A DNA stretch of 64,000 nucleotides, from positions 9,326,789 to 9,390,788 of the forward strand of contig OY987242.1 of assembly GCA_963920765.1 (NCBI GenBank), written 5' to 3'. Source of the stretch: Ulota crispa (lineage: Eukaryota; Streptophyta; Bryopsida; Orthotrichales; Orthotrichaceae). Every line of letters starts with the position of its first letter. Positions within the stretch are counted from its first letter, which is position 1. The translations under genes were made by a program, and so were the position numbers. Under the pieces are notes generated by a model. It worked only from the letters and a program-made list of their open reading frames with translations, had not been told where the DNA came from and made no database searches. This document shows positions 2,501 through 57,601 of the stretch, in pieces.

Positions 2501-3154
2501 TTAACCCCTAAATGCCCAAGGCCTTTCTAAACTTCTTGGCATTTTCAGGAAAGTGAACAATCAACCAACCTTTTCGTAAATCTCATCAAGTTTTTTTAAA
2601 TTGTAGCCATACAAATTTAAGTTTGACATGTTAGAGATTACATGGAAAAAGGAAACACAACAATATCACTTATAGTTTGAAAGATTACAACGTTTGAACA
2701 TGAGGGTATTAAAACTACAAAAGTGACTTGAAGTTCTCTAATCCTCATTTCACATGTCAAATCTAAAAAGTTGGTCATCAAAAAAATATGAGGTTTAAGG
2801 TCATTACATGATTAACCTCAACCAATTTACGACTTTCAAAATCTACTCTTGCATTTTTTTTAAATGGATTTCTAATGTGGATTTTTCTCCAAGCTCTAGT
2901 GTATTTGAGGCTCATTTTCAAGATCTTCCAACACTAGAAAACTCAAGATTGCAATGGACACCCTTGTACAAAATCTTGAATAGAAAGATCATGGACACTC
3001 ATTTTCAAAATCAGATTTTTGATGTTGAAAATAGACTTCAAAACAAACTTGTGTTCAAAAGAAAAATACCAAAAATAGTGATTTGATAAGATTTTATTTG
3101 TCTTCAAAGTTATGCAAACACCCAAATTGGGTGACTTGGGCATTTAGGGGTTAA
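2501..3154 (+). mobile_element. TTAA-family MITE, subfamily A (654 bp with TTAA)
   Basis: Bounded by TTAA on both sides. The ends CCCCTAAATGCCCAAG and CTTGGGCATTTAGGGG are perfect inverted repeats of 16 bp. The inside is shared with the copies at 27403, 33618 and 47876, for example the stretch near 2890-2980 (CTAGTGTATTTGAGGCTC). No transposase frame; the short ORFs are not conserved in the other copies. Confidence 0.88.
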
Positions 3155-6100
3155 GCAATTTTGCAACAAACTTCAAAGAGTTTGAGGCAAAAAAAATATT
3201 TTTCATGTAAGAAGATAAGAAATATTGGGATTGCACATTTTTCATTATTTTGTTTGGAAAACTGAACTATTTGTGAATTTTGGGAGTCAAAAAGTGCTTT
3301 GCACCCATTTTCAACCAATTTCAATAATAGCCAAATTATTTTCCGCTCATTACTTCATACTTTACTTTGGGACACATGGCATGACTTAAGTGGTCACAAT
3401 CTTTAAAAGGACAAAAGAACATATTCTAAAACACCTATCCCTATTGAGATTGGAAATAGGGCCCTGTACAAGTTGGGTAAGAGATGTTGTCAGCAATGGG
3501 TGTCTCCACCTTAAATCCTGCATGGAAGTGTGTTGGAAAATATAAATGACATTTTGACAATATAAATGTTCTGACAAGTTACTAGCAAAAAGCACACAAA
3601 TTTTGGACAAATTATGGAATTTGGCATGAATATGTGTTGAAAAATATAAATGGTGTTCTGACAAATTTCTAGCAAGAAGTACAAGAATTCTGGAGGTCTT
3701 AGTTTTCCAAAGTTGGAAAATGTTGGTCACTACGACTGATTTTAATTGACAATTAGAAGTTGGCCTTTGAAGGAGTTGAAATATCCTTGGAAAATCGTTG
3801 GACCATCCTTATATCAATCAGTGTTAGATTTCAGTTTTGCACAAAATTTTCGCAGAAATCATTTTTTTGTTTGTTTGTTTTCAGCATGTCCATAGTCCAA
3901 TATTTTAGGTTGTAATATTTTAGGTTGTCATATGACATTGGCAACAACATGATTTGTGTAAGATACATAAAAGGGCAGAACGTATAAACGGGCAGAAATT
4001 GTATAAGCTTGAAAACTCCAATTCCTATGTAAACAAATCAAGTTTGTTTGAGTCCTCTATTAGATTTTGAGGATTTTTTTTAACTATGTTGTTTCAATCG
4101 TTTTTGAAACTTGTTAAATTTTCTTCTAATCCTACATTCCTATGAACTCAGAAAAGACTCATAAAAAGTTTGATTAACGAGATTTTGGAGAATGTTGGGT
4201 TCAAAGATTGTCGCTCCATTGTACACATCCCCTTTTTGAACAATTTTCAGTCGGATTCAGTTACTTTACTTTGAGCATTGCATCATTGAAACTCATTGAG
4301 ATTTCGTAAAATGAAGCATAGTTTGAGTACTTTGAAGATTGTAAGGATAATTTCTTTATTTTTGTAGTGTATGTGGAATTTTGGATTCACTTGTAAACAA
4401 GGGATAGTCCGTTCAGCATTGAAAATAGCTAGGAACCTTGGGACAAGAAGGATTTTAAAACATTTCATTTTGCTCACAGTAAAACTAGAGATTTTACTTT
4501 GGAAGCTCATTTGTTGAAAATATAACTTCCCAAATTCCCAAGTCCCTGCGCTACATGCCTCTCCTTAGAGCAGCCTGAATGGCCACTTCATGTGGACCCT
4601 TTATCATTGAGGAGAGAAGAAAAAAAAGAGTCCAACTGAAACACTAATCAACGCATTTCGTTAGAGTGAGGAGACCCTTGATGCAGTATATTGCAACTAG
4701 TCACAATGCACTCCAAGTGAACAAAAAAGTGTAATCAACACAGTCATAATGAAAACTAACCCTATTTTAAATATATTTTGGAAGAGCAACTATCCATAAT
4801 GACCTCATCCTCATGCAAATTCTCAAAGTGAACCCCACTTTATGTTAAATAATAGCATATCAATTCTCTAACCTAAAACCCGAGGCTCTGCACACAGTTA
4901 ATGGCTATCATGATAATATCCTTATCACAACAAAAAACATCCTCCAAAGACATATGGGGTCAATATACCAAGTTTCATTGAGAACCTCAAGCTGTCAAAT
5001 GGCTTGAAACTATTGTGCCTCCAAAAATCACCCTCTACTTTTTGGTGACAGCGGCCACATGCAGGTTTGCATTGGGAATGCTCTTGCCTTTTACATAATT
5101 CAGTAATACTTGGTGATTGTCATGCACGCACAATTAAGTGCACATTTGGAAAGATGACAACTTCAAAACATCTCTATTGATCAAATAAATGAAAGTGTGA
5201 TGTCTTCTTCAACAGTACATTATTCCAAAGCTTTCTAAATGTTTTATTAAAAATCTTGTAGATATAGGGCAACTTAGGGATTCAAACATAGATGATGGAG
5301 TTTTTAGGTAGATGTAGCTTTTGTTAATGCAAGGCCTTATGTTGTGAGCCAATATATGTGTACAAGGTGACCTCTTCTATGCTTGTACTATTTACATAGG
5401 TACAAGCTTGATGACTTTGTTTTTCATCCATAAAAGGACAAGATGTATACAATTACAAAGCAAGTAATAAGTTCTATACTATGGATTCCATGCACACTTG
5501 GAAAAAATACTTAGAAATCATTTATCTTTACAAATATTCAATGCAGCTTGTATGGATTTTGATGGTGGATCTATAGGAGCTAGTTCAAATGGATGGAGAA
5601 CCAAGAAAAATTAGATCTAGAGCACAAGAAGTTTTGCTTAGTTTTCATATGATGCTTGATTGAACATAGCACCCCTTTCTCATTCAAAGAAAAGATTATG
5701 GAGATTTCTTATGAAGAAAAAAACACACCAACTTAAATACAATTGAAGGTTTGAATGTAAATTTTTTTATAGCTTTATAAAATAAAGTATGTAGTATCTT
5801 ATCATTTAATTTTATGTTTTCAAGCTCTATGTTTTTGCACAAGGTTTGTATTAGTGTGGCCTAAAACTTTAGATTCCTAGTTTTATACTATTTGGTCTCA
5901 AATAATTTGACTCTTGGTTAGATGTTGGTTAGTCTCAAGTCAAGAGACTCTATAGTCCACTTTGTGTTAAAGCCCAATTTCTAAACCACCAACATGAATC
6001 ACTAAGATTATTTAGAGCCTAGAATTGGTCAACAATTGAGTCTTAAGGTTTTATATTGATTGGTAGCCCAGTATGGTTTGTTACCAGCATGGCTGTTCAT

Positions 6101-6282
6101 GTAGCAAATTTTGAAAGAAATAATTGGATCATCACAATAGGAAACCTAATTTGAAGAATTTGAGCCAGTTTGTTAGTTTTAAAATTAGGCCATCAATAGG
6201 GTGCAAGGGCATTAAATTGAATTTAGTTTTGAATCCAACATAAAATAAACTTTGATATGATGGATGGTCTAATTGATGGCTA
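3155..6282. other. AT-rich spacer, nothing recognised
   Basis: No open frame with family resemblance and no clear inverted-repeat element. Short frames at 3386-3730 and 4283-4510 on the minus strand have random-like composition. Confidence 0.5.
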
Positions 6283-7040
6283 AAGGCCCATTCTCACTGA
6301 AACATTGAATGCATTTGAGTGAGAAGGATTTTTTCTTCTTCTCTAATGCTGGTCCACCAACATGGTTTTAAAAAATGTCCCACAAACAAGTGGGGGAATG
6401 CATTTGGAAAGCATGTTCTCTCAAATGACGCAGTCCCTTACTTCAAGCAACCAATGGGATGGTTCCATATGACCTCAAGAGATTGGAATAATCATGCAAG
6501 ACTTGTAGGTGGTGGGGTTTCATGTGCTTTTACGTTTTATTTATGTTTTTTCATTCATAATCATTCCTTTGATGTTGCTTGCTACCAAGAATGAAATTTT
6601 TGGTGACTTATTTAAAACAAGGAAAAGTTTCATGGATTCCCTATGAAGTTTGCAATATTTGAATAGATATCCTTGCTTTTTCAGAAACTACACAAATACC
6701 TTGAGACCAAACCCTAAGACCAAAATTTCTAGACGTCTATTTTATTGTGCATGCCACTTCCCTTCTTCCTTTGTGCACACATTGCTTCTTTTTTGTCTCA
6801 TTACATTCCCTTCTTCAACATTGGTCATGAAGGAAGTACGAGCACAACAAATGAATGCCTAAATTTTTTTGATCCAAGAGTGTTTGTGTGATTTATGAAA
6901 AATAGAGATATCTATGCAAATATAGCAAACTTTAGGGGTATCCATGAAACTTTCCCTTAAAACAATACTCATGGCTGATAGAACAGCCAATGAACGTGCC
7001 AAAGAAAATGGGGGCATGAATGGATTGTGAATGGGGCCAA
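6283..7040. mobile_element. Possible MITE with GGCCC(C)ATTC ends, interrupted by another MITE
   Basis: AGGCCCATTCTCAC near 6285 faces GTGAATGGGGCC near 7024-7035, and each is followed inward by a GAATG motif, as in divergent inverted ends. A smaller element (6621-6956) lies inside. The ends are imperfect and no target duplication is clear. Confidence 0.35.
6621..6956 (+). mobile_element. Mutator-type MITE, 336 bp, with 9-bp target duplication
   Basis: Flanked by TTAAAACAA at 6612-6620 and 6957-6965, an exact 9-bp duplication typical of Mutator-like elements. The ends GGAAAAGTTTCATGG and CCATGAAACTTTCC are inverted repeats. The inside (GTGCATGCCACTTCCC) is shared with 13467-13758 and, inverted, with the fragment at 34440-34596. 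No coding capacity. Confidence 0.85.
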
Positions 7041-8212: not shown

Positions 8213-9127
8213 TTAACCCTTTAAAGACCACACACATTTTCTCAAAATCCACTAAAAACATAGGCAATAAAATTAGATGCGTATATGAATCAAATATGGA
8301 CCCAATTTGAATAATCCAACCGTACAAATGTAAAGGACACCTTGTTTGTTTTAATGTGACAAATTTTCTGTTAGATTTACCGTTGGAGGTGAAATATTCT
8401 AATGATTGAGTGAGCTGTATATGGAAAATCTCTAGTAGGTCATGCTTGTGTGGTTTTGGGTGTTAACACTTCATGCAAGCTTTGGTTGAGAAGAGCCTTA
8501 CATTTCTAAAAAGCAAGGTTTTCCACCTCTCCAATAAGACTAGTTTCACACAAAATAAACAAAAATAGCAATTATAAGGTGTAGCTAAGTGGACAAAAAG
8601 GGTCAAAAATCCTATTTTCTTTGCTACCCTAAAACAATTCTACAAGAAATTTGATGATTGTTATTGAAAATCTGATCGGTGAAAGCAATCAAGAATTGGC
8701 CTTAGATGTAGGATGAAATTTTTAAAAAATAAAATGATAGTATCATTTCAATGGATTCTCAAATACTACAATTGTACTATTGCTATATAGAGAAACAATA
8801 CAAGCTTATTCCTTAAGCAATTTAATTTTTTTTAAGATTGCACAACTGAAATGTGGCATTCTTCTTGGATGTTTGATGTATTGTGTTGTTGCTTTGATCC
8901 ATCTTTGACCAAATATGGATACGTATTTTGAGGCCATGATGTATAAGCACCATTACTTATCAATTCATTTATCTGATTCCATTGTTGTTTTTTGGGTTGG
9001 ATGCAAAATTCTCTTGATCACAAGCGTTCTTCAAGATCATTTTCCAAATTGTTGAGCAATTTTACTGTATAGGTCAAAAACTACTCTCCCGAACCAAAAT
9101 GTGGTTCGGTGGTCTCTAAAGGGTTAA
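8213..9127. mobile_element. TTAA-family MITE, separate subfamily (915 bp)
   Basis: TTAA at 8213-8216 and 9124-9127. Left end CCCTTTAAAGACCAC, right end GTGGTCTCTAAAGGG (written with a one-base offset): inverted and of the same CCCYTnAA type as the other TTAA copies. Its inside does not match subfamilies A or B by eye. Confidence 0.7.
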
Positions 9128-9269: not shown

Positions 9270-10208
9270 TTAACCCCTAAAGGTCCAGCTATCCCTCGGG
9301 GGACAATTGAGATTTCGGGCATGTACCTATAGCTAATCTAGTTTTTGTGATTTTTTTAAACTTTTATTGAAGGTGGGAAATTCCAAGACCTATCCAAGAA
9401 TCTAATTTTTTTGTCATTTTGACATTTGACAAAGAAGTTATGCAAGAATTTTTGTTGCCCGGGGGAAGGAGGGCAATCTGGGCAACCCAAAAACTTCTTA
9501 AAATTTTGTATTTTCTAAAAAATAGAAATTTGAAACTGGTTCTTTAGATTTTTTCATATGTGGGAAGTTTTGAATCATTCAACTTCATTCAATGAGATGA
9601 AAGTTATGAGATGTTTTAGTTTGTGGGCAATTATGGATTCTCTACTCTAAAATAAACTTTGAAGTCCTTTATTTTCCACAATTTATAATATTTTGGAAAA
9701 AAAACTAAACCTAAGGAAGTAGATTGTTTATCACAACATTTTGACCTGTAGGATTTGCAATTTTCATTTTAATAATGAAATTCTTAACAATTTAGTGATT
9801 TGACTCATTCTCTACTTCTTTTTACTTACTGATTTCCCCCATGTGTTGTATAGTTCCAATTGATTTGAAAATTCTCCCGCACATACCTAACTTGGTCTGC
9901 TACATGAAAAAAATAAACCTCAACTTTGTGTAGAGTAATTTATTTCATGTAAGTGTGGACAAAGGCTTGTGAAATTTTTTGGACAGCACAAAAAGAAGCA
10001 TTTTTTTCACTTTAGATGTAAATATCTCCCTCCTCTCCATCTAAAATGATCTGATTTTTTCTCAAAAGTACCTCTTCTAATATAAGGCAAGATCCTACGA
10101 TTGGATTTGCAAAACAAACTTTATTTCTTACTTTTCCACTCACTCCCCCAAAGTGGCAGTTAACAATAACTTTCACTGGAGAAGACTGCTTGAGCGTTTA
10201 GGGGTTAA
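9270..10208 (+). mobile_element. TTAA-family MITE, subfamily B (939 bp)
   Basis: TTAA at both ends with CCCCTAAAGGTCC and GAGCGTTTAGGGG just inside. The copy at 52008-52946 is the same length, lies in the opposite orientation and looks close to 90 per cent identical where compared; copies at 14108 and 31163 are more distant. The inside includes the phrase GGGCATGTACCTATAGC, which is well kept between copies. No protein is encoded. Confidence 0.88.
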
Positions 10209-11294
10209 AAGGTAGCGTAAGATTGTGGCAAAATTTTGCCTTCAAAAAAATTCACTGTTTTCAACCGTGGGGGCTATCTTTGACCATTCACGCCTTCACG
10301 CTCTCAGTGTTTGGCATCAACAAAAATTCTCCGACAATGGAAATTAATCTTAGTAAATTTTTAGACATGATTTTGCCATTACAGAACATCTACGTCAGCC
10401 AATTTCTTTTGGGCAAAGTTTTATGCAAGAATTGTACCTCATTCTAACTCTAGCTTATCTTCAACTTCAGAAACTTAGACGAAAAGTGGAATATATCCTC
10501 AAATCTCCCTCAAAGAAACACTAGGGAAACCAAATTGGGTAAACGTTACTAATATTAGCTGATTTCATGGGTGAACATTCACACATGATGATTATATCCA
10601 TTATTTGTTCTGTACCTGCACTCTTTTTGGGTGCATGTTGTTGCACCTAGTGTCCGGGGAGATTTTGAGCTTCCTTGGTCACATATAGTTCTCATTTTCA
10701 ACCAGTTGTTTTTGTAGTGTGTGCACCGGGTATTGCCTACATTATTCTATTATGATTACTGTAGGTTAAGAGCAGATTCAACAGGTCTCTGCGGAGTTAA
10801 TTATTTTTTGAGAAAAAAATCAATTTGGCATCAGATTTTATAATTAAACAAGATTAGATACTTTCAAAAAAAGTTGTTATTATTTGGCATTCAACTAAAA
10901 AAATTAGTAGAATTAAGTCTTTTTTAAAGCATTTTTCACTTTCTAAAAGTAGCCATTAGTATAAAATTTGCAGTAGATTGAGCCCTCTTGGAATCAACCT
11001 TAACCTTCCATTGTTAGTTAAGCTTAATGACTTTTAAAATATTTGGCATTTCAATTTTTTGATTTGTTTGACATTGGGCATTTTTGGAGAATAATTTATA
11101 GAATAATTGGGCAAAAATATGGGGAATTATTTTATGCCAAACTTGCTCTCAACCTACAGGTAGACCTTTCCCATTTAGATATATATAAAAAGAATAATAA
11201 ATCTTTTTCAAATCTCCACACTCATTGCTCAACCCCTAGTAAAAACAATAAATAATTCCTTGTTCCAAAGTATGGACACAATGAGGGTGAGGTA
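10209..11294. other. AT-rich spacer
   Basis: No gene seen. A single TTAAGAGCAGATTCAACAG near 10768-10786 resembles the GAGCATCTCCA end of the element at 57602, but no partner end was found. Confidence 0.4.
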
Positions 11295-13457: not shown

Positions 13458-13466
13458 TTATTTCTA

Positions 13467-13823: not shown

Positions 13824-14107
13824 TTAACCCCTAAATGCCGGGCCTATGACCACTTAGCAATAGCTGGGCCATTGGGCGAGTCTTTCTTTTTGTGCTTGAT
13901 TTGGAGGGGTCTTCCAGTTTTTGGAAGCTAGCAAACATTTCATGAAACGTATCTAAATCAACTAAAGTTCAAACCCAAATCTTCTTGTGTTTTCACAATA
14001 AAATTTTGAATGCCTTTCAAAAATTTAATATATTTTAATTTTCTAATTTGTTGTTCGTGAAAAGTAGCCAAACTTAGTATGTGTTTTGGGCCCACTTATC
14101 AAATGCA
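13824..14107 (+). mobile_element. TTAA-family fragment, left end only
   Basis: Starts TTAACCCCTAAATGCCGGGCC. No matching right end was found before or after the complete copy at 14108, so this looks like a truncated element into or next to which the second copy inserted. Confidence 0.6.
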
Positions 14108-15040
14108 TTAACCCCTAAAGCACTAAGCTCAATTTCTCACCAGAACCGCTCCAAAACTGCCATTTCTAGTACAAGTACCAAATTTTAGGAAAAAAAAACT
14201 TTTTTTGACAAATGTAGCCTAAATCTTGTACTATACTAGTACCAAAAGATGTGAAAAAAATTCAAGAGTTTTCACCATGTAGATTGTTAGATATTTAAGT
14301 TTGAATTGACAAAAAGTCATTTTTTGTCTCTGCAAAGTCCAGGCAGCTACACTTCACAAGGTCATATCTATATGAAAAAAACTCCAAAATTGTTGTTATT
14401 TTTTGGATTTTTTCTTCAAAGCAAGTTGGATACACACTTGAAAAACTTCAAATCATTTGGAATTGTAAAACACATGGAAAAGAAACAGTAAGTAAAAATT
14501 AGTAGAGAATGATTCAAACCACTAAATTGAGAAGAACTTAATCATGGAAATGAAAAATTCCAATCCCAATAGTTATAATTTTGTGATAAACAATCTACAT
14601 CTTTTGGTTTTCTTTCTTTTCTACAATATTGAAAATTGAGTAAATTAATGAACTTCAAAGTTTACTTTAGGGTAGACAATTCATAATTGCCCGCAAACAA
14701 AATCTCCTTATAACTTTCATCTCATTGATCAAAATGGAATGACTCAAAGCTCCCCAAGTATATACAAATCTAAAGAAGCAATTTTGAAAACAAAATTCAA
14801 AAAAATGTAATCTTTAAAAAAAAAATTTGGCTGCTTGCCAAGCAAAGGAAACTACATATCATGCAATAACTTTTGAACCACCAAGTCAAAAGTAATGAAA
14901 ATTGTTGGGTTTTAAAACTACTCCTTGGACACATCATGTGCAAAGATTTCAAAGAAAAAAAATAGAAACTCCATTGGTAGTGAGCTGCCCAAAATTGCTA
15001 TGTTGCCAAAAAAAAGGGTGTTCAATGCTTTAGGAGTTAA
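14108..15040 (-). mobile_element. TTAA-family MITE, subfamily B (933 bp)
   Basis: TTAA at 14108-14111 and 15037-15040 with CCCCTAAAGCA and TGCTTTAGGAG inside. The inside (for example AACTTTCATCTCATTGATC near 14710) matches the copy at 52008 in the same orientation, and the copies at 9270 and 31163 inverted. No protein is encoded. Confidence 0.83.
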
Positions 15041-23146: not shown

Positions 23147-25540
23147 AGCTCGCAAAAAGCGACCTACGACCGAGCTCACTGAGTCCCTACGAACTCCTCG
23201 GAGACAACGTCCCAGAGCTGCTGCACGACAACAACAGTAGTCGACGACCACACTAAGCTGACGACGAGGGGCAGAGGACGCAAATAAGGCAAGTGGCCAC
23301 TCATCAGGGGGCACTTCGCCGGAGCATAGTGGTGGTGTGTGGTGGCGTCACTAATTGGGCATGATCATGGTTGGAGTGTTCCTGTGATGAATAAGGGGAA
23401 AAAAGAAGTAGTGCAACAGGGGTAGGGGGCACCGCAGCAGCAGCAGTGCCTGTTTGCGAGCCAGCGAGCAGACTGGGTGGGCGAGAATTGTGGCGATCTT
23501 TCTGTCGCGGTGGGTCCCAAACGCCTCCCGGGCTTGCGGTTGGTCTCGTCGTCTTTCCTGTCGTACAACACAACACACCAATGCCACAATGAGAACCGTC
23601 ACTCGAGGCTCTTCCTCTTCCTCCTCCCTCTCCGCCTCCTCCCGCCCCCGCCGCGGATGCTTCTTCTTCTTCTTTCACGGATGACTCACTCCCTCACGCA
23701 TCTTCTCCGTCACTCTTTCACAGACACGCTCGCCCCCCATGACCGACAGCACACCACTCCCACTCTCAACAGCCTACGACACCCCTCCCCTTCTCTCACG
23801 ATTCCGATCCCCTGCAAGCTTCCTGCGCCGCCGATTTGTCGGTACAACTACTCGCCCTCAGCTCAGATTCCCACTCTGAGCTCCCCATCAGACGCCACTG
23901 CAGTGCCAATTATCATCAACGGAATTGTAACTACTACGAGTGTGTTTCTTCAGCAACTTACACGAGGTGTCGTGTGCGTGACGACCCTTCTTGGCCACTC
24001 TCGCTCTCTTCCTCCACCCTCACTACCCGTGTCGGCGCCGCAAAGCAATCAACCCCCCGCTGTAAGCTACGAGCTCAATTCGGCTCGCGTACCGCCGTCA
24101 AAGCTACCAATCCGAAGGGCCTCTCCTCGAAATTAGCAAGCTGAATTGCTGCAGCAGCAGCAGCAGCAGTCGTGGCGGAAAGAAACGCCGCTTTCTGACG
24201 CCTCTACTTACTTAGCTGCTATCCTGAAGAACCGTGACCCCAACAACCAAGCGCACGAGGCGACGTTACTTAAGCAAAGGGTGCGGGCGACCTCTGTCGA
24301 CGGCGCTGGCCACACAACCAGAAAAGAATTGACTCTCAAGTACTACGCGTCACGATGCCGTAGTCGTTTACTTTACGGTGTTTACGGTAATCATGCGCTT
24401 CACTTACGAAATGACCCCTGTCATTACGCGAATCACGCACCAAGCAAGCTGACCCACCTCTTCCCAATTCCCGCAAAGATGCCCCCAAACCTACGCCGGC
24501 TACACATTCAGGATCTCTCTCTCTCTTATTCTCTGTCGCTGCTTGTCTCTCTGTCGCTGCCTCTCTCTGTCTCACACTGCACCTCGCATTCCAATCCAGC
24601 ACCCGCCAATTACGCTGTCCCACAAAGCGATCCGGTGATTCACATACCATCTGCGCATGCCATGATTCATTCCCCTGTTAACTGAAATCCCGCACCCCTG
24701 CCCACCATGGATCGCCTAAGCGCCCCAAGCTCGAACAAACCCCCGCACATGCCCCAAATGCATCCCGAATCATCCGCTCACTTACCTCATAGCTTCCCCC
24801 GAGTCCACCTCCACACCCCACACATCCAATTTCGCATTCAACCAACCCAATTGAGATCAATTGCAAACAACAGCGACGTCACACGAGCACATCGACTAAA
24901 CCAAGACGACGAGGGCGACGACGATGACGGCGACGGCGACGACACTCGCAGCAATGCGTGCTGCCCCGTGGCTGGATGGAGCGAGCATCACGAGAGAGAT
25001 CATGAGTGTTTTTTGGACTTCAATTCAGGATCGGGAATGAGTGAGTGGCAAGCTGGAATCGGTCGCCCGAGCAGGCAGAGCAGGAGTAGGAAGAGGGCGA
25101 GGAGCTGCTGACCTGCGAAGGGGAGCTCGGAATTGCGACGATGGGGGCGGGGATTGCAAGCTTGCAGCAGCGATAGCGAGGACGGGGGTTGGGAGAGAGC
25201 AGGTTGCTCAAAACAACTGACAGTAACTGCAGTGCAGCAGCTCTTGGGGCTTTCACACGGCGCAGGCACGCTGTGGGGGCTACTGCCTCCCTCCCTCCTC
25301 CCCCTTCCCGAGACAGAACAGAACTCCTTCTACTCTTTACTGTCCTACACTCCCCGGCCCATGGACTCTCCTCACTCCCCCCCCCACTCCCCCTCTCGTC
25401 CTCACTTCCTCTCTCTAGAGTTCTCCCACTCCTCCCTTTCGCTGCTTTTACCTTTCACCTCAGCTTTGTGCCACTTTACTTCCTCTCCTCCGTGACTCCT
25501 TTCCTGGTTTCTACAGTTAGGTGTCACTGCACCCACCCCC
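23147..25540 (-). promoter_or_regulatory. Probable promoter and 5' leader region of the zinc-finger gene
   Basis: GC- and CpG-rich, unlike the spacer around it, with CT-rich and CAG/CTG runs (for example GCAGCAG repeats near 24150 and CT repeats near 24515). No other convincing coding frame is seen. On the minus strand ATGAG|GTAAGTGAG at 24790-24781 is a good donor match, so a 5' leader intron is possible. The transcription start cannot be placed from sequence alone. Confidence 0.45.
23176..23304 (-). promoter_or_regulatory. Candidate upstream ORF in the 5' leader (42 codons)
   Basis: An ATG at 23304 opens a 42-codon frame (MSGHLPYLRP...) that closes with TGA at 23178-23176, 29 bases before the proposed main start at 23146 and in another frame. 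If the mRNA leader reaches this far it could dampen translation of the zinc-finger protein. No function of the peptide is suggested. Confidence 0.4.
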
Positions 25541-25554
25541 TCCCTTGGATGGAT

Positions 25555-26402
25555 GACACTCCCCTCATCCTCATCCATCATCCCTCATCCATCATCCCTC
25601 ATCCCTCATCCATCATCCACCATCCACTATCCATCATCCATCATCCATCATCCCTCATCCACCAGCCTCATCCACCATCCACCAGCCTCATCCACCATCC
25701 ACCAGCCTCATCCACCATCCTCATCCACCAGCCTCATCCACCATCCTCATCCACCATCCCTCATCCACCATCCTCATCCATTATCCTCATCCACCATCCC
25801 TCATCCCTTATCCACCATCCCTCATCCCTCATCCACCATCCCTCATCCCTCATCCACCATCCCTCATCCACCATCCTCATCCACCATCCCTCATCCACCA
25901 TCCCTCATCCACCATCCCTCATCCACCATCCCTCATCCACCATCCCTCATCCACCATCCCTCATCCACCATCCCTCATCCACCATCCCTCATCCACCATC
26001 CCTCATCCACCATCCCTCATCCACCATCCCTCATCCACCATCCCTCATCCACCATCCCTCATCCACCATCCCTCATCCACCATCCCTCATCCACCATCCC
26101 TCATCCACCATCCTCATCCACCATCCTCATCCACCATCCCTCGTCCACCATCCTCATCCACCATCCCTCATCCATCATCCTTCATCCCTCATCCCTCATC
26201 CACCATCCTCATCCACCATCGCTCATCTCTCATCCACCATCCCTCATCTCTCATCCACCATCCCTCATCTCTCATCCACCATCCCTCATCCATCATCCCT
26301 CATCCTTCATCCCTCATCCCTCATCCACTATTTCTCATCCACCATCCCTCATCCACCACCCCTCATCCACCATCCACCATCCTCATTCACCACCCTCATC
26401 CA
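25555..26402. repeat. C-rich minisatellite, 14-bp unit CATCCCTCATCCAC
   Basis: About 850 bp of related units. The centre (about 25884-26110) is roughly 16 near-identical 14-bp units; both flanks mix shorter CATC, CATCCCT and CATCCACCAG variants. The strands are strongly asymmetric, with almost all G on the minus strand. It lies about 2.4 kb upstream of the zinc-finger start codon, at the edge of the GC-rich island. Because the unit lacks stop triplets in some frames it makes long spurious reading frames. Confidence 0.97.
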
Positions 26403-26561
26403 TCCGTTCACTTCGTTGTAATGAATATAGCAAGCTCGAAGGTTTGGACATGGCCCATGCTCTAGTAGTTATGGACGTTGGACAACTCAACTCTCCAAAT
26501 TTCTTGAAACCATTTTGACATCGTAATGATTGTAATACAAGTGTGGCATGTGTATTGGAAC

Positions 26562-26809
26562 TTAACCCTTGAATGACCAAGCTACTGTAATACATACAAT
26601 ATACAATGTATGTTGATATATAACTGGCATTTGCTACCAACAAAAAGTTTTGATTTGGGATCTTGACTACCTCACTAGAACAGCATTAATTTATATTCTA
26701 ACTTCTTTATTGATCTCAAAAATAATAAAGGTGTGGATGCACTCCAAATACAAAAGAATACTCCATATTGTATTGGCTGCAAAGGGTTGCTAGATCATTC
26801 AAGGGTTAA
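26562..26809 (+). mobile_element. TTAA-family MITE, subfamily C (248 bp)
   Basis: TTAA at both ends, CCCTTGAATGACC left and GATCATTCAAGGG right. Its inside (GGCATTTGCTACCAACAA, CACTCCAAATACAA) matches 37567-37800 and the interrupted copy at 56317. Confidence 0.85.
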
Positions 26810-27402: not shown

Positions 27403-28055
27403 TTAACCCCTAAATGCCCAAGGCACCACATTTTGGTGCCAACAATATTTTGAAGTTCAATAAAACCAAACTAAGTAGCAATTTTTAGTATTTAGTATTT
27501 TAGAATTATTCTTTTCAAAGTCTAGTTTCAGATCAAAAACTCGATCTTTAAAATTATTGATTGTGAATTTTCTATACAAGATTTTGTGCAAGGGTGTCCA
27601 TTGCAATCTTGACTTTTTTAGTGTTGAGAGCTCATGAAAATGAGCCTCAAATACACTAGATCTTGGAGAAAATTTCACACTAGAAATTCATTTTAAAAAT
27701 TTGTAAAATAGATTTTGAAAAGTTGTAAATGGATTGGAGTTATGTTTGTTATGTCCTTTAACCTCATCTTTTTTTGGTGACCAACATTTTAGATTTGACA
27801 TGTGAAAAGAGGATTGAAAGGCTTGAAGTTAATTTTGCAATTTTGACACCCTCTTGATTAAACATTACAATCTTTCTATCCATAAGTGGTGTTATTGTGT
27901 TTTCTTTTTCTATATGATGTCTAACATATCTAGTTTGAATTTGTACGATTACAATTTTAAAAAAATTGATATAACTTATCAAAATGTTGACTTTTTGTGC
28001 TTTTTAGAGCAAAATTCCAAAAGCTCAAAAAAGGCCTTGAGCATTTAGGGGTTAA
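27403..28055 (-). mobile_element. TTAA-family MITE, subfamily A (653 bp)
   Basis: TTAA at both ends with CCCCTAAATGCCCAAGG left and GAGCATTTAGGGG right. The inside is the reverse complement of the copy at 2501 (compare GTGTCCATTGCAATCTTGAC near 27594), and the lengths differ by one base. No protein is encoded. Confidence 0.88.
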
Positions 28056-30920: not shown

Positions 30921-32104
30921 AACACCATATTTGTTAAATTGGGAAAAACATTGGTCTCACTTTGTACTTCACCTTGGTCCAAGATAGTCACCTCAAACCA
31001 GATTTGAAGGTATCAGATTCAATTTGAGCCATTAAGATTTTTTTCCTTGCAAATTCCTCTTCTTAGGAGAGGACACGTGTACCCAAAAAAAATGCTGCTA
31101 GCTCAATTGTACATGATCATGTACAACCTGTAAAAGTCCCAAAATGTACCCTTTTTCCCAATTTAACCTCTAAAGGACCAAGTGTTTGTTCAATGGACAA
31201 ATGGGATTTCAGGCATGTACCTATGGCCAAACTACTTTGTATGATTTTTTGAAACTTTTATTGAAAATGGGGAATTCAATGATCTACATGGGCATCTAAT
31301 TTTTATTCCAATTGATGCCACGGAGCAAAAGTTATGCTCAAATAAGCACAAATTTGGGAACTCTGGGCAGCAAAAAAAATTCTTATAAAAACTTGAAAAA
31401 ACAAATTAATTAATTTTTCTCATAGATTATATCTTTGTCTACATCTGAAGCTTTGATTCATTCCATTTGGACTAGTTATGAGAAAGTTATGGACAATCTT
31501 GTTTTTTGGGCAATTCAAGTATCCTCTTGAAAAAATAACTTCTAAACTTCAATTTTGAATGCAATTTTAACATTTTTTCAAAAAAATTGTTGGTGAGGGT
31601 GAAGTTTGCTTTCTAGAACAATCTCACCATTGGGATCATTGCATTTCAATTCCATTGCAAGGTTATTAGCAATTTAATTTTTTGTTCAATCTCATACCTT
31701 CTTTTGCCTAATGTTTTTTTAAAGGATGATTTTTTTTTTTTTTTGTTATTTCATTTTTCCCAAGATTACCAACTCAACTTCCCACCATACAAAAATAGAA
31801 TTCCAAACTATGTGATGCAAAAGTTTTAAGTTAAAAAAGTTTGAAGTTAAATAATCTAGTCATGCAAGGTGCAAAAAAGCTGTTTTTTACTTTGTAAATG
31901 CAAATATCTTCCAACCTGTACAATCAAAGTTCTTGAGTTTTGTATGACACATTCTTATAGTATTCTAGTACAAGATCGTACGGTTAGATATGCAAAAAGA
32001 CTGATTTTCAAACTTTTTTACTCTTTGCCATAAAGGTGGCAGTTTTGAGTTTCTTTTGACATAATAAAAGCCATGGTCCTTTAGGGGTTAACAAATATGG
32101 TGTT
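30921..32104. mobile_element. AACACCATATTTG-family MITE (about 260 bp) split by a TTAA element
   Basis: The left end AACACCATATTTGTTAAATT at 30921 is the complement of AATTTAACAAATATGGTGTT once the element at 31163-32091 is set aside. The body up to 31162 matches the uninterrupted copy at 51645-51888. Confidence 0.82.
31163..32091 (+). mobile_element. TTAA-family MITE, subfamily B (929 bp), inserted in another MITE
   Basis: TTAA at 31163-31166 and 32088-32091 with CCTCTAAAGGACC and GGTCCTTTAGGGG inside. It matches the copy at 9270 in the same orientation (TTTCAGGCATGTACCTATGG). The host MITE at 51645-51888 has one TTAA (51872-51875) at the matching site and nothing else, so the insertion duplicated TTAA exactly. 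Confidence 0.9.
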
Positions 32105-32309: not shown

Positions 32310-32824
32310 GGGAAAATATCAAAAATGTCCCTCAATTCTTTCAAAATATCAAATATACCCTTATATTATCTAAAATATCAAAAATACCCTTGGTTTTATA
32401 TCAAAATATCAATTATACCCCTAGTTATCTTTGAAAACATCTAATATTCTTAATTTTTTTGTTCCTTTTTACTGAAATTTTTGTACGTCACATTTGCACC
32501 AAAAATAAAGACAAATATTAGTCAATACATGGCCACAATAAACTTAAATGCAAAAACCCTATATAAAACTTGAGGAACTTGCTTCCAAGATTTTACTTAC
32601 ATTCAACTTGCATCTAGGTTTGTAATTTTCATTGGCATCCCAATATTTACAAAGATTTGTACTAACAAAATTCAAAAAAACTAAAAATATTAGATGTTTT
32701 CAAAGATAATTAAGAGTATAATTGATATCTTGACACAATACCAAAGGTGTTTTTTAAATTTCAGATAATACAGGAGTATATTTGATATTTTGAAAGAACT
32801 GAGGGGCATTTTTGATATTTTTCC
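32310..32824 (+). mobile_element. AAATATCAAAAA-family MITE (515 bp), Mutator-type
   Basis: Ends GGGAAAATATCAAAAATG and ATTTTTGATATTTTTCC are inverted; the pairing runs on for about 50 bp through CAATTCTTTCAAAATATC. Flanks AATTTTGAA (32301-32309) and AATTTTAAA (32825-32833) agree in 8 of 9 bases, fitting a 9-bp duplication. Second copy at 28883-29578. Confidence 0.82.
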
Positions 32825-33617: not shown

Positions 33618-34261
33618 TTCACCCTAGACCGCCCAAGGGGACGGAATGTGGCCGCTGTGCATTTTAATTTAAATTTTTTTAATTTTCTTGAAGATTAATT
33701 TTAGTGATTATTATTTTAAATTTATTCTTATTGAAGTCTTGTTTTAGTATCAAAAATCTAATTTTGAAAATAGTGATTATGATTGCCTTTTCAAGATTTT
33801 GTGCGAGGGTGTCCATTGCAAATCTTCACTTTCTAGTGTTGAGAGCTCTTGGAGATGAGCCTCAAGTACACTAGAACTTGGAGAAACAATCCCATTAGAA
33901 ATTTAATTTAAAAAGTTGTAGAGTAGATTTTAAGAAGCCGTAAATTGATTAGGGTTACACATGCTGTACTTTACATACTCATTTCTTTTTTCTATCCTTA
34001 ATTTTAAATTTGAGTTGTGAAAAGAGGATTGAAATCACGTTTATAGTTTTAACACCCTCTTCATCAAATGTTATAATTTTTCAATCCATAAGTGATATTG
34101 TTGTGTTTTATTTTCCTATGTGATCTCTAACATATCTGGTTTGAATTTGTATTGTTACAATTTATAAAAAAATGATGTAACTTATCAAAATGTTGCCATT
34201 TTGTTCATCCAAGAGCACATTATGAGATATTGGAGAACGTCCGTGGGCGGTCTAGAGTTAA
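33618..34261 (-). mobile_element. TTAA-family MITE, subfamily A, diverged ends (644 bp)
   Basis: The left boundary is TTCA followed by CCCTAGACCGCCCAAG, the right CGTGGGCGGTCTAGAG followed by TTAA. The inside matches the copies at 27403 (same orientation) and 2501 (inverted). Its ends are nearer CCCTAGA than CCCCTAAA. Confidence 0.78.
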
Positions 34262-35119: not shown

Positions 35120-35211
35120 TTAACCCCTACAGGACTAAAGGGACGCTTTTTTGTCCTTGATCATACACGGTGGCTTGTCTAGGCACAGTGACCCCAGCAT
35201 TTAAGGGTTAA
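35120..35211. mobile_element. Very short TTAA-family element (92 bp)
   Basis: TTAA at both ends, CCCCTACAGGACT left, AGCATTTAAGGG right. The core is GC-richer than the flanks and matches no other copy by eye. It is the smallest member seen. Confidence 0.65.
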
Positions 35212-37566: not shown

Positions 37567-37956
37567 TTAACCCTTAAACGTCCCAAGGGCATAGTAGATA
37601 CATTGCCATATATTTGGCATTTGCTACCAACAAGAAATTTTAACTTGGGATCTCAAATAGCTCACTAGAACCGCGTTTATCTATATTCCAACTTCTTTGT
37701 TAATTTCAAATATAGTAGAGGTGTGGATCCATTCCAAATACAAGAAAAACACCCTTGATTGTATTGGTCGCAAATGGCCTTTGTGACGTTTAAGGATTAA
37801 CTTGGAATCTCAAATAGCTCACTAAAATTCCATTTGTCTATATTCCAACTTCTTTGTTAATCTCAAATGTAGTAAAAGTGTGGATCCATTCCAAATACAA
37901 GAAAAATACCTCATATTGTTCTGGTAGCAAAGGGCCTTTTGGTGTTTAAGGGTCAA
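37567..37956 (+). mobile_element. TTAA-family MITE, subfamily C, with duplicated right half
   Basis: A complete element runs 37567-37800 (TTAACCCTTAAACGTCCC left, GACGTTTAAGGATTAA right). Directly after it, 37801-37956 repeats the last two thirds of the element and ends again in GGTGTTTAAGGGTCAA. This is a head-to-tail partial duplication of one element. Confidence 0.82.
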
Positions 37957-38149
37957 TCATTCTATAACTTGAGATATTTTCATTGAATCTAAATGAAACT
38001 ATGTATAGTGGTGTACAATTGAATCTTTGTCAAGATCTCCCAATCAGTATATTAAACTTCAAGTAGAATAAAATAATATTTGAATACAAGTCATTTTAAG
38101 TTATAATGCCCAACTACTTAGACATCTTGAAATTAAGTTGATTATTATA

Positions 38150-38557
38150 GGGAATTACTAAAGCCACACCCAAAATTGCTAATGCCACATCCTTATAAGC
38201 ATGTATTTTGTAAATTTAATGATTTTTTTATTTATTCAAGTGGTCCATCATTCATTCAATCAAGGCATTACCACCTTCTTGAAAGAAAGAAAAATAAATA
38301 CACTTTTTGGTTGAACTTTTATGGCACCATTGCTATTTTTTTGATGTATTTTTGCTTCAAATATTTTAAAACTCATATATTTTTAGTTTCAAATTCAAGC
38401 ACCTAAAATTTTTTTTAACATAACTTGAGAATGATAAAGGTGAAACAAATCTTTTGATCCAAATTTAAAAAATCAACATGAAATTCTCATAGTTCATGCT
38501 CAAAGCAAACTTTGGGGTGTGGCATTAGCAATTTTGGGTGTGGCTTTAGCAATTCCC
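38150..38557. mobile_element. hAT-type MITE (408 bp) with exact 8-bp target duplication
   Basis: TTATTATA at 38142-38149 and 38558-38565. The ends pair over about 40 bp, starting GGGAATTACTAAAGCCACAC and closing GTGTGGCTTTAGCAATTCCC. The 8-bp duplication points to a hAT transposase. No coding frame is conserved. Confidence 0.87.
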
Positions 38558-38565
38558 TTATTATA

Positions 38566-39796: not shown

Positions 39797-40206
39797 TTAA
39801 CCCCTAAACAACACAGTTTGCCGCTGCGACCAAAATAGGGTGTTTTTCCAGTATTCAAAGGTGTTGTTGTTTTGGGTTTTGATTGAATTTTTGAGGGTTG
39901 TGTATTGCTATCCTTCTCCACCTTTTGAGATGTTTGGCATGTTTCTATGATCATTTTCCGACTTTGCAAAGTGTTTGTACTAGAGGTGGGCTACAAATAC
40001 GTAGTTGGAGCGTATCTGCGTCTTACGGAACCCTGCGGTGGATCCTCTAAATGAACACACTACCAAAGCGCCAGGAGCAAGCGTTGTCGTCTAGCCACTC
40101 CAATTCACAACCCACGTCAAGAAATGAACAAAAACCAGATCTGAGTCACCGTAGAATTACGATACAGCCAGGAATCTACAATTCTCTGTGCTCGTTTAGG
40201 AGTTAA
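39797..40206. mobile_element. TTAA-family MITE with GC-rich core (410 bp)
   Basis: TTAA at both ends, CCCCTAAACAACACAG left and GCTCGTTTAGGAG right. The part at about 39985-40190 is much richer in GC than other copies and matches none of them by eye, so the element may carry captured sequence. Confidence 0.72.
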
Positions 40207-42264: not shown

Positions 42265-42809
42265 TTAACCCCTAAACGCCCAATCAATCATTTCTTGGTT
42301 GCTGCCCTTTTTCATGCTGCCCAAGATGAAAAAAAATGTTTTTTGAAAAAATAAAACATATTTTCATCAAAGGCACCAAGTCTACTTTCCAACCCAATTT
42401 GAATCATGTCAATCCAAGTTAAACTCAACCAAGGAGAATTTTTCAAAAACAAACATTTCAATATTTACCAATGTTATAAAATCTACCATTTTGGGAAATT
42501 GATGATGTTCTCTTCTTCAAAAATATTACTTTTTTTAGTTTTAGAAGAGAATGTCTATTTTTAACTAGTCATGCCTAATTTAAAATTCTATGGACAAAAT
42601 TTGTAATTTTGATGGATATTAAATGGTACATGCTTCTAAATTCATTAAATTAGAGTCCAAACTTTTTTGAAATGTTTGACCATGTGAATAATTACTAAAC
42701 ATCATAGTTCTTGTTTTCTCTTTTGAAGCAAACTTCATTGAAATTACAAAAGTATAATTTTATAACGCATTTATGTTTTGCCCTTACCCCTTGGGCTTTT
42801 AGGGGTTAA
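42265..42809. mobile_element. TTAA-family MITE (545 bp)
   Basis: TTAA at both ends, CCCCTAAACGCCCAA left and TTGGGCTTTTAGGGG right. The inside differs from subfamilies A, B and C. No protein is encoded. Confidence 0.83.
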
Positions 42810-45048: not shown

Positions 45049-45356
45049 ACATTACAAGGGATTTGGACCCCCAAAGAGGCCCCTTCTCCCAAATCCATGG
45101 GAGCTTTGGGAACACCTTCCACATGGGCAATGTGCTGCAAACCAGGTTGGCATTACGTCAACCATGTCAACTTGTATTATTTTGTTATTTTTTATTTTTT
45201 GAAAAAAAAATTTCAAAAAATTTCTTATTTTTTTCTAAAACTTTTTTTTTTGAATTTTTTTTAATTAATTTTTTTGACAACAAGCAAGCGTTGATTCCCA
45301 ACATTGGGAACAGAAAAACTCACAGCTCCTTTAGGGGTCCAAATCCCTTGTAATGT
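45049..45356. mobile_element. MITE with ACATTACAAGGGATTTGGAC ends (308 bp)
   Basis: The first 23 bp and the last 23 bp are inverted repeats with few mismatches (right end GTCCAAATCCCTTGTAATGT). A second pairing (TTGGGAACACC and TTCCCAACATTGGGAA) lies further in. The core is an A/T homopolymer-rich stretch (45190-45270). The target duplication is not clear; TA is possible. Confidence 0.75.
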
Positions 45357-47086: not shown

Positions 47087-47089
47087 TAA

Positions 47090-47875: not shown

Positions 47876-48475
47876 TTAACCCCTCAAGGCCCATGCACTT
47901 TCCTGAGTATCTCAGAATATGTTCTTGGATGAACAAAATGTCAACATTTGATAAGTTGCATCATCTGTTTATAAATTGTAACCATACAAATTCAAACTAG
48001 ATATGTTAGAGATCACATAGGAAAAGAAAACACAACAATATCACTTATGGATTGAATGATTATAACATTTGATCAAGAGGGCGTTAAATCTGTGAAAGTG
48101 ATTTGAAGTAGTTCAATCCTCTTTTCACAACTCAAAATTAAAATTGAGGATACCAAAAAAATATGAGTATGTATAGTACAGCATGTATAACTCTAATCAA
48201 TTTGTAGATTCTTAAAATCTACTCTACAACTTTTTAAATGAAGTTTCTAATGTGATTGTTTCTCCAAGTTCTAGTGTACTTTAGGCTCATTTCCAAGAGC
48301 TCTCAACTCTAAAAAGTGAAGATTTGCAATGGCCACCCTTGCACAAAGTCTTAAATAGAAAAATCATAATCAGTAATTTTCAAAATCAGACTTTTGATAC
48401 TAAAAAGGACTTCAACAAGAACTCTAAAAAAAATATCATTATAATTAATCATGAAGAAAATTTAAACATCCCAAA
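47876..48475 (+). mobile_element. TTAA-family MITE, subfamily A, right end lost
   Basis: Starts TTAACCCCTCAAGGCCCATG and follows the copy at 2501 and the complement of 33618 through GGACTTCAACAAGAACTC and on to about 48475. No AGGGGTTAA end follows, so the right terminus is deleted. Confidence 0.75.
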
Positions 48476-50320
48476 TTACAAACAAGGAAGAACAATTTTG
48501 GTTCTGGTATTTTTATTTGTCATAACATACATACCTTATAATATTGGTGTATCTCAATTATTTGGAGGTTTTCATTTTTGCTCCAAAGATTGTCCCACTA
48601 ACTCCAACACCTATCAGTCTTCACTTATTTTCTTACGGTTTGGATGGGTGCACATTGTTTATTCCTTTGAACTTATTTGTGCCACTTTTGTATGGGAATT
48701 TTTCCTCTTCAACTTCTTTTTAAGTTCGATTTTGTTGTAGTGTTAATAGTTATCAAGGAGAATCAATTTTTTCATATGGCAAAGATTTGAAAAGAAAACA
48801 TGTATTTTGCAAATTCACAAGCATTACAAAAATGAAAGAGTATATTGTCTTGTGGCTTTATTAGGATCTGTACCTTCAACTCTAAATTTATAAAAAAATT
48901 AAACGTTTTTTTATTCGTGATTTGCAATGAAATAAGGAGCCATAACACAAAATCACAATACAAATTAGATTACTGTAATTCTAGTAATGACATATGTCAT
49001 GTTTGTCTAGCTCAAATAAAGTCCTCAAAATGATTTGTTTCTTTTACATTTTCTTTATGTTAATCAATACGTGAATGATCAGATATCTATCTAAGCTTCA
49101 AAAAAGAATCCTACAAAGGATTTTTAGTTTTTCCTACTTAAAGTGGAAGTTAGAAGGATGTCAAAACACATGTGAATCCAAATGGATCAATGTGATATTT
49201 GTAGTAGATACATCTCAAGTTTGTGATTGTTGTAGGTTTCCAAAAAAAAGAAAAATGTATGATTCATTAAAATGTACAATGATTAAAACATAATTTATAC
49301 ATACTTATGTAATGATCACATTATGTAGGAAGTTCCATATGTTTTTATTTATTGGAGCAATGTTAGTTTCAAATAAGGTTGTCTTTTCTTAACATTGGCA
49401 CCAATTAATCTTGAATCCATGTAACCTTTCAAGTAAAAGATGGATTTTACACACCTAAGATGGCCAATTTTTTTACTACGGTGGTATTGGCCTCTCATAA
49501 TTGCCTTGTCAATGTTTATGGTCTTATTATGAAGCTTAGTTCGATGTCCAATCCAAGTTCTAAAATAATGAACTCTTTTTAAAACTCAAAATTACTCTAA
49601 ATATAGCACAATATATATAGTAATTATAGATAATTTGGGGATACATTAATTAATTGATTGATAATGACACACAAATTCTACAACTTACTGGATATGACCA
49701 TGGTAGGCAATTTTTTTTGAAGTTGAGCATGCCATGTAACAAATTTGGAGTGATGTAATCACTGTTTTACACAATGATTTGTATCACATTTAAACTTTTT
49801 TGGTGAGAATTTGACAAATTTAGTAAAAGGATTTTTTTATAAACATGGACTTATTCATTTGGTATTAAATTTATCCAGTATGTGTTTTGGTATTGAATAT
49901 GTTTGTATTTTTGGTTTCAACTACCCTGGTTTTCTAACATCCAGGTTGTTTTAAAATCTATAGTATGTGGTTTATTAGAAAAACAAAAATTAAAGATGTG
50001 TATGAGATTTTATAACAAATTACCTTGAACTATAATTTTAGGATCTTTAAAAATTGTGAATGCAACAGAATTCAAAATAAAATCGGCACGTTACAGTTGA
50101 GTCAAACATTTCAATACTTAATAGCAAATAAATTTGCAATGTTTATTTGTATATACATGTATTAAACTTGAAATGGGTTGGAATAGTTTTAACATATTAG
50201 CATCCTTCACTACTAAAAGGGGTCTTTGAAGCATGCATAAGCATATCTATATTATAAGCTGAGGCTCATGGCAATATTCAGCAAGTCAAATTATAGCACA
50301 ATTTTGACAAATCCTCTTTA
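48476..50320. other. AT-rich spacer
   Basis: TTTTGTTGTAGTG at 48729-48741 looks like a lone right end of a CACTA-type element; no left partner was found. Nothing else recognised. Confidence 0.4.
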
Positions 50321-52007: not shown

Positions 52008-52946
52008 TTAACCCCTAAAGGTCCAAGCAGTTTTCTCTAATGAAAGTAACTGTTAAACGCCACTTTGGGGGGAATGAGTAGAAAAGTAGGAAATAAAGTT
52101 TGTTTTGCAAATCCAATCATAGGATCTTGTCTTAGACTAGAAAAGGTACTTGTGGGAAAAAATCAGGTCATTCTATATGGAGAGGAGGGAGATATTTACA
52201 TCTGAAGTGAAAAAATGGTTTCTTTTTGTGATATCCAAAAAATTTCACAAGCCTTTGTCCACACTTACATGAAAAAAATTGCTCTACACAAAGTTGAGGT
52301 TTATTTTTTTCATGTAGCAGACCAAGTTAGGTATGTGTGGGAGAATTTTCAAATCAATTGGAATTATACAACACATGGGGGAAATCAGTAAGTAAAAAGA
52401 AGTAGAGAATGAGTCAAATCACTAAATTGTTAAGAATTTCATTATTAAAATGAAAAAATGAAAATCCCAACGGTTATAATGTTGTGATAAACAATCTACT
52501 TCCTTAGGTTTAGTGTTTTTCCCAAAATATTATAAATTGTGGAAAATAAAGGACTTCAAAGTTTATTTTAGAGTAGAGAATCCATAACTGCCCACAAACT
52601 AAAACATCTCATAACTTCCATCTCATTGATTGAAGTTGAATGATTCAAAGCTTCCCACATATGAAAAAATCTAAAGGACCAATTTCAGATTTCCATTTTT
52701 AGAAAATACAAAATTTTAAGAAGTTTTTGGGCTGCCTGGATTGCCCTCCCTCCCCAGGCAGCAAAAATTCTTGCATAACTTCTTTGTCAAATGTCAGAAT
52801 GACAAAAAAAGTAAATTCTTGGATAGGTCTTGGAATTTCCCACCTTCAATAAAAGTTTTAAAAAATCACAAAAACTAAATTAGCTATAGGTAAATGCCCA
52901 AAATCTCAACTGTCTCCCTTGGGACAGTTGGGCTTTTAGGAGTTAA
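52008..52946 (-). mobile_element. TTAA-family MITE, subfamily B (939 bp)
   Basis: TTAA at both ends with CCCCTAAAGGTCCAAGC and TTGGGCTTTTAGGAG inside. Equal in length to the copy at 9270-10208 and its reverse complement at roughly 90 per cent identity where compared. Flanks beyond TTAA (TTGTCC and AGAGTT) share nothing, so TTAA is the whole duplication. Confidence 0.88.
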
Positions 52947-53660: not shown

Positions 53661-53663
53661 ATA

Positions 53664-56316: not shown

Positions 56317-56412
56317 TTAATTGGCCCTCAAAGGACGATAGGGCATAGTATATATGCTGCTGTATAATTAGTATTTGCTATCAATAAGAAGTTTTAATTT
56401 GGGATCTCACTA

Positions 56413-56550
56413 AGGTAATCGACTCTAATGCCAACCATGCTTCTAATCCCGCATAAATTTACACCCTCAATAGATTCTATATCTAAGATCTACTGAAGGT
56501 GTAGATTTGTGCGAGATTAGAAGCATGGTCGGCATTAGAGCCGATTACCT
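56413..56550. mobile_element. Foldback MITE at a TA site (138 bp)
   Basis: Arms of about 55 bp (starting AGGTAATCGACTCTAATGCC, closing GGCATTAGAGCCGATTACCT) pair almost completely around a short loop. TA stands on both sides; the related empty sites at 37567 and 26562 read CTCACTAGAAC with one TA. This fits a mariner/Stowaway-type insertion. Confidence 0.87.
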
Positions 56551-56658
56551 TAGAACTACTTTGATCTATTCTCCAATTTTCTTGTTGATCTCAAACGCAA
56601 TGAAGGTGTGAATTTATTCCAAATACAAGAAAAACACCTTGTATTCTATTGGTTGCAG

Positions 56659-57398
56659 GGTGATTGCAAGAAACATTTGTACTACATTATGTCCCCTCCC
56701 TCCTAGGCGGGAGGTAATAGGCTCGTACCTTTTGCATAACAAGTTTTTTTGACCTGAAATTTCAAAGTAAGGTGAACATCAAAGTTATTGACGTTTAGAA
56801 ATTTTTTGGTGTTTTTCAAAATTATTTTTCTATTTATAAATGGGCCCCAATTGCATGTCTACTATTGTGGTTTTGGAGGTTTTTACTACTCTACATTGGG
56901 TCTGAAAAAGCAAATTTGCTGCCAAAAATCAGGGTAGTGGTTTGGGAAGTATCATTACACAAATCTGTAGACTTGTTTTACAAAACTCAAAAATCTCTAC
57001 TTTGCGCATTGTCTCAAAGTGGGCATCCTTTCTCCCTCCATTGGTGAAAGACAAAAACCTTCCTCCAAAAAGTACTTGCATTAGTTCAAGCTAATGAGGG
57101 GAATCAAAAATAGTCCCTTTTGTTTTATATTTTTGAATTTTTTTACTATTTTTTAAAAAGCAAAAAGGAAATTATCTTTTGTTGGTAATTTTTGTCCCTC
57201 TATTTTTGTGCATGACTTTTAGGACAAATTTTTTCTAGGATTGAATTTTCACAAGTATGCTATTTTAAGTGCTTCACAAATTTTCCATATTTTGTTTTGT
57301 TTAAAAGAAATTATTTCAAAAGCTCATAGTACTACTTTGTACTACCAGTTTTAAGGGTGTTTGAGACAAAATTGTGAAATGTTTCTTGCAACTACCCC
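56659..57398 (+). mobile_element. GGGTGATTGCAAG-family MITE nested in a TTAA element (740 bp)
   Basis: Begins GGTGATTGCAAGAAAC and ends GTTTCTTGCAACTACCCC. GCAG stands on both sides (56655-56658 and 57399-57402), a 4-bp duplication. Inside it matches 35947 in the same orientation (TCTCAAAGTGGGCATCCT, AGTACTACTTTGTACTACC). Confidence 0.85.
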
Positions 57399-57601
57399 GC
57401 AGCGTCACTCTCCATCCTTTAGGGATTAACTCCACTCTTAACATCAACCAACAACATTCCATAACCCCCCAAAACCCTTGTGTCTGCTTTGGCTTTGGAT
57501 AATTTACCACAACTCTAGCATCCTGAGCTTTTATAGTACTTTGAGCATCTCTAGCCACCCTGTACTTTTTCATCTTGGCAAATTGCAGTGTTTCTTGTTT
57601 A

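Follow-up and report, generated by a model that had tools for sequence, protein, structure and literature searches.

We report that short repeats with TTAA and CCC(C/T)T-type ends in a 64,000-nucleotide stretch of the genome of the moss Ulota crispa (assembly GCA_963920765.1, contig OY987242.1, positions 9,326,789 to 9,390,788 of the forward strand; hereafter the window) are, with a probability of roughly 0.93, non-autonomous elements that belong to several piggyBac lineages of this genome and resemble miniature inverted-repeat transposable elements (MITEs). The elements are flanked by a 4-bp TTAA duplication, related sites are found empty, and piggyBac domains with catalytic aspartates lie between matching ends. 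A first-pass annotation, made from the letters of the window alone, had proposed that a TTAA-targeting transposase drives these repeats; elements carrying the PF13843 domain between matching ends supported this proposal for piggyBac.

Inspection of the ends in the window showed that TTAA and the terminal motif described in the first-pass annotation were present at 11 of its 14 main coordinates and one base off at the other three (31163, 35120 and 47876). A search allowing up to two mismatches and requiring TTAA detected 15 left and 15 right ends, as compared with a mean of 5.1 for left and right together in 20 shuffles and 4 + 6 with the reversed motif. TTAA was found on both sides in 13 of the 14 window elements delimited at two ends, a proportion biased by the fact that ends were sought partly via TTAA. 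The exception was the element at 33618, with TTCA at its 5' side and TTAA at 34258-34261 on its 3' side. Inverted repeats were poor in two of the 14, at 35120 (7/16) and 56317 (5/16). The 14 delimited intervals add up to 9,250 bp, or 14% of the window, which may be atypical.

Counting the end CCCCTAAANGNCCAAG genome-wide provided a less biased test than the window elements. It occurred 10,023 times (4,991 + 5,032 by strand; control, 1 + 0) and was preceded by TTAA in 8,413 cases (83.9%; 4,206 + 4,207); copies without TTAA, which were to tell against the proposal if numerous, were thus not the general case. The motif TTAACCCCTAAA was found 30,972 times (15,477 + 15,495 by strand) and its reversed letters 77 times (41 + 36). 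CCCTAAA is the plant telomere unit, and the shared ends could have been telomere-like sequence or a product of chance instead of transposon ends. This explanation is already refuted by the ratio of 30,972 to 77, by homologous copies having fixed limits and differing flanks and by the empty sites described below, and its probability is negligible.

Sixteen window intervals were compared with each other by blastn. Their cores had been described as unrelated, which was correct in part: 11 of the 16 fell in three families (A, B and C), the interval at 8213 represented a fourth (D), and those at 13824, 35120, 39797 and 42265 stayed ungrouped. All are given on the + strand unless stated otherwise. 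Family A (about 650 bp) comprises the elements at 2501-3154 (654 bp, TTAA on both sides, with 16-bp inverted ends CCCCTAAATGCCCAAG that match perfectly) and 27403-28055 (653 bp, TTAA on both sides), a relative with diverged ends at 33618-34261 and an element with a decayed right end at 47876-48502, the right limit of which is approximate. Family B (about 935 bp) is represented by 9270-10208 (939 bp), two diverged elements at 14108-15040 (933 bp) and 31163-32091 (929 bp), and 52008-52946 (939 bp, - strand), which is 92% identical to the reversed 9270-10208; all four have TTAA on both sides. Family C comprises two MITEs with TTAA on both sides, 26562-26809 (248 bp) and 37567-37800 (234 bp), and part of the diverged interval 56317-57429. 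Of the two intervals reported with diverged ends, 33618 has TTCA on its 5' side and 56317 has poorly matched ends between two TTAA. Family D was assigned its correct start in the first-pass annotation; the element extends to 9127 (8213-9127, 915 bp), as delimited by an 87% identical copy at L036 629-1537, and both the element and this copy have TTAA on both sides. Among the ungrouped intervals, two elements are bordered by TTAA on both sides, at 39797-40206 (410 bp) and 42265-42809 (545 bp). The 92-bp interval between TTAA ends at 35120-35211, whose inverted repeat is poor, could be a remnant or have arisen by chance. A left end alone, TTAACCCCTAAATGCC, was identified by motif match at 13824-13843, and no right end for it was found in the window with up to two mismatches and TTAA.

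Genome searches with families A and B showed many related copies. With the 27403 element as family A query, the 39 other copies scored (best 40 of 5,348 candidates) were 89-91% identical and aligned nearly all end to end. For family B, the 39 others (best 40 of 8,981 candidates) were 88-92% identical and 29 of them spanned positions 1-939; these candidate numbers do not equal copy numbers.

Target sides were then read in high-scoring copies of both families, a choice that favours well-kept ends. Among 20 family A copies, those ranked 2 to 22 by score with rank 16 omitted, TTAA was present at the 5' side in 20 and at the 3' side in 19, the exception being aligned from base 3. When the next bases outwards were compared between the two sides, 4 and 5 of the 20 copies agreed, at chance level, in agreement with the earlier statement that nothing is duplicated beyond TTAA. 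Six of nine family B copies, ranked 2 and 4 to 11 (the window's own 52008, rank 3, was left out of this set), had TTAA twice. In another, L100, TTAG was found on both sides; its match falls one base short, and the letters there are GGGG TTAG. The repeated TTAG of L100 and the single TTAA at empty sites indicate that the duplication is four bases long. A mariner-like duplication of TA only, with a preferred T-TA-A context, would leave identical sequence wherever the flanks are TTAA, and family B copy L094 reads TTAT/ATAA. However, a 2-bp TA duplication is unable to explain the 4-bp direct repeat of L100, family A keeps TTAA while the next bases are mixed, and the enzyme encoded is piggyBac, not mariner. 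We consider a TA-only duplication extremely improbable.

Two cases of empty sites were identified; both are paralogous places that lack the insertion and are no proof of excision. Inside a repeat (L030 with L038), C3:13137301-13137953 is occupied by a 653-bp family A copy, and reading of the homology showed that the same repeat is present in the window at 10757-11158 (- strand; 85% over 402 bp) free of insertion, with a single TTAA at 10913-10916. Joining the flanks of the 2501 element gave 40 scored matches (best of 897 candidates). Two of these were the flanks of the element itself, whose overlap is TTAA only, and the other 38 of 38 (83-88%) ran across the junction without the element. The joined flanks of the 42265 element matched only its own two flanks, which overlapped in TTAA only, and no paralogue was detected. 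An automatic search with 22 end pairs among the loci retrieved found no empty site.

The search of the whole genome suggested in the first-pass annotation, for a piggyBac or Kolobok protein within such ends, led to PF13843. Profile analysis with this domain (DDE_Tnp_1_7) gave at least 120 match rows on contigs C1 to C11, the best at 1.3e-73 (116 of 528 candidates scored), and no match in 14 control genomes. When the L012 frame was used as a query, 113 rows were obtained; apart from itself, they were 30-78% identical, a range which suggests several old piggyBac lineages. The L012 and L011 frames matched bat piggyBat (PDB 9c0f) at 1.7e-16 and 1.2e-11, respectively, and the 6x67 transposase, Trichoplusia ni piggyBac, at 3e-13 and 1.8e-17. 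In the catalytic columns of 6x67, D268 and D346 are kept in both L012 and L011, and D447 and D450 in L011; by eye, the second frame of L012 reads GVDVADQ. Cys-rich tails are visible in both frames, for which Pfam reports PF13843 alone. Candidate domesticated genes at C1:1180709 and C8:19570986 were dropped, L104 and L105 each having one long frame (309 and 472 amino acids) and no clear gene. Separately, two piggyBac remnants on C2 (36764767-36765849, +; 36779829-36780911, -) agree in score, identity and stops; they lie some 15 kb from each other in opposite orientation, a pattern expected of a recent inverted duplication, and a similar pair was seen at C7:18203k and C7:18223k.

Five elements of 5.0-5.7 kb, each with PF13843 between TTAA/CCC(C/T)T inverted ends, were delimited. 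Over 5,029 bp, L030 (C3) and L031 (C10) share 90% identity, with unrelated flanks; they are limited by TTAA (L030) or TTCA (L031) followed by CCCCTCATYGCC and, on the opposite side, by TTAA and CCCTTCATTGCC. The third element, C2:15046195-15051296 (5,102 bp), has TTAA with CCCTTGACCGCC and TTAA with CCCTTCACCGCC. In S2 (C5:10867266-10873011, 5,746 bp) both ends are TTAA and CCCCTAAATGCC. In S3 (C4:14100870-14106325, 5,456 bp) both ends are the 16-bp sequence found at the ends of the 2501 element; the adjoining target is TTAA at one end and differs from TTAA by one base at the other. The homology between S2 and S3, 66-70% in the main pieces, stops at the element limits. A parent encoding a Harbinger, mariner or hAT transposase would have spoken against the proposal; the transposase-bearing elements found encode the piggyBac domain. 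When the search for ends was confined to a distance of 1,500 bp from the transposase domain, a single left end (L020, two mismatches) was obtained from 20 loci, as the elements are longer and wider stretches are needed. The stretch C7:11814404-11822436 (S1), which resembles a single 8.0-kb element holding a nested MITE, is not among the five: a second end pair lies inside it and its 5' limit is uncertain. S1 has a B-like 3' end.

The MITE families share more with these elements than the roughly 12 bp first described. S2 and S3 have the same 16-bp ends as family A, and the family A terminal sequence matched them weakly, over about 90-140 bp at 62-69% (E 2e-8 to 4e-4). Family B aligned with the 3' end of L032 over 359 bp at 74% and with that of L033 over 422 bp at 69%, in both cases up to TTAA; in the window, these 360-420 bp correspond to the 3' part of 9270-10208. 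No 5' end was identified for either L032 or L033. By these alignments, the link of family B to piggyBac elements is firmer than that of family A. Kolobok elements likewise duplicate TTAA, and a Kolobok or another TTAA-targeting transposase might drive the MITEs while piggyBac merely coexists. The THAP domain PF05485, used to look for Kolobok, had no match in the genome but also none in the control genomes, which makes this no valid test of absence. The ends of the piggyBac elements are also those of families A and B, with which these elements share longer terminal sequence, and CCCT-type ends are usual for piggyBac according to PMC12732532, making a Kolobok-driven origin very unlikely. We also observed a fold-back repeat, roughly 440 bp long, that matches in both orientations (72-83%) and is nested in piggyBac elements (L032 954-1393 and 2433-2876, with inner ends TCAACCCCCGGTGTGC; L042+L012+L043 at about 2949-3406), which is possibly another MITE family.

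We therefore favour a piggyBac origin, in which the transposase would recognise TTAA and the CCC(C/T)T... ends and cut the element out; the excised element would insert at another TTAA and then have TTAA on both sides. Internal deletion or the capture of ends may have given rise to families A and B from larger piggyBac elements, and the MITEs would have been moved in trans by the piggyBac transposase, by cut and paste. This activity has probably waned and would lie mainly in the past, because no intact gene was found, most matches contain stops and the scored MITE copies are about 10% off the query.

Several observations weigh against this interpretation. The search yielded no intact transposase: stops interrupt 110 of the 120 PF13843 rows and the other 10 are mostly partial or short frames, and intact copies may exist in the genome, as only some of the candidates were scored. 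One target side is mutated in S3, and likewise one in L031. TTAA is missing from 16% of the CCCCTAAANGNCCAAG ends, which may reflect decay or other sites. Two family B copies depart from the pattern, L094 with its TTAT/ATAA and L102 with neither side kept. At 62-69% over about 100 bp, S2 and S3 are not close parents of family A, and mobility itself is deduced from sequence.

Other repeats were seen in the window. An inverted repeat at 32310-32824 has 173-nt arms, 83% complementary and 169 nt apart, and a similar one at 29038-29553 has 92-nt arms. MITE-like inverted repeats with different ends lie at 38149-38558 (44-nt arms, 95%) and 45049-45356 (28-nt arms, 96%). At about 25500-26450, overlapping long open frames encode a repetitive His/Pro/Ser-rich peptide and look minisatellite-like. 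Two window frames encode C2H2 zinc fingers (PF13912). The window, G000:C1:9326789-9390788 in our coordinates, lies within a 41-Mb contig of an assembly of 275 Mb and 157 contigs. C1 to C10 measure 41, 37, 34, 26, 26, 23, 22, 21, 19 and 16 Mb, sizes that would fit ten larger chromosomes in a moss. Full-length, stop-free psaA and psaB are found on plastid contig C157. Among the PDB chains listed, the psaA protein was closest to 8htu (1733 bits, 9 differences in 750), followed by 6l35, 7ksq, 7kux and 7xqp; these chains are from the moss Physcomitrium, in keeping with a moss plastid. Of the match rows, 46 of the 48 for psaA/psaB lie outside C157 (for example C1:39701403-39702104), as nuclear inserts of plastid DNA would give.

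The moss elements share with the piggyBac superfamily the TTAA duplication, the CCC(C/T)T ends, PF13843 and the D268/D346/D447/D450 columns of 6x67. They differ from Trichoplusia ni piggyBac and bat piggyBat in having a land-plant host and in the diversity and mostly broken state of their copies. Animal piggyBac-derived MITEs are also short and non-autonomous with piggyBac ends and TTAA, unlike the moss MITEs in host, in the thousands of copies and in the several families. Kolobok is alike in its TTAA duplication, with a different transposase and different ends. Stowaway and Tourist plant MITEs are likewise short, high-copy and bounded by inverted ends; Stowaway differs by its TA target and mariner enzyme. 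Tourist differs by its TWA target and Harbinger enzyme (PMC10004981). At 5.0-5.7 kb the transposase-bearing elements exceed the intact beetle piggyBac elements, of 2.1-3.5 kb, among which CCCT is the most prevalent end (PMC12732532).

The same 2025 article places piggyBac mostly in animals, fungi and protists, with occasional plant occurrences such as red algae. Nevertheless, there is precedent for piggyBac in plants: a survey table includes it among the superfamilies present in all groups studied, land plants included (PMC4438587), 1,230 PiggyBac fragments are listed in the repeat table of a fern (PMC6890710) and PiggyBac appears as one of seven angiosperm MITE superfamilies (PMC10004981). 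Among the titles and abstracts searched in the open-licence literature, no report of moss piggyBac, or of a moss MITE expansion tied to transposase-bearing elements, was found, although repeat tables of moss genomes may mention piggyBac; one moss genome paper (PMC10619864) matched solely through the word piggybacking. The novelty is the unusual host and the unusual scale, the mechanism and the superfamily being already known.

The copies have diverged from one another, which suggests that they have been resident for a long time and do not stem from a single recent transfer. We give even odds to the broader proposal that a long-resident, multi-lineage piggyBac population has become a chief source of MITEs here, with well over ten thousand TTAA insertions, and forms a land-plant counterpart of the animal expansions that is undescribed so far. 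The ends let annotators classify MITEs otherwise labelled unknown, and the natural plant piggyBac sequences can be compared with the insect tool in use in plants. The presence in a moss of both transposase-bearing elements and MITEs by the thousand would demonstrate that piggyBac can thrive in a land plant.

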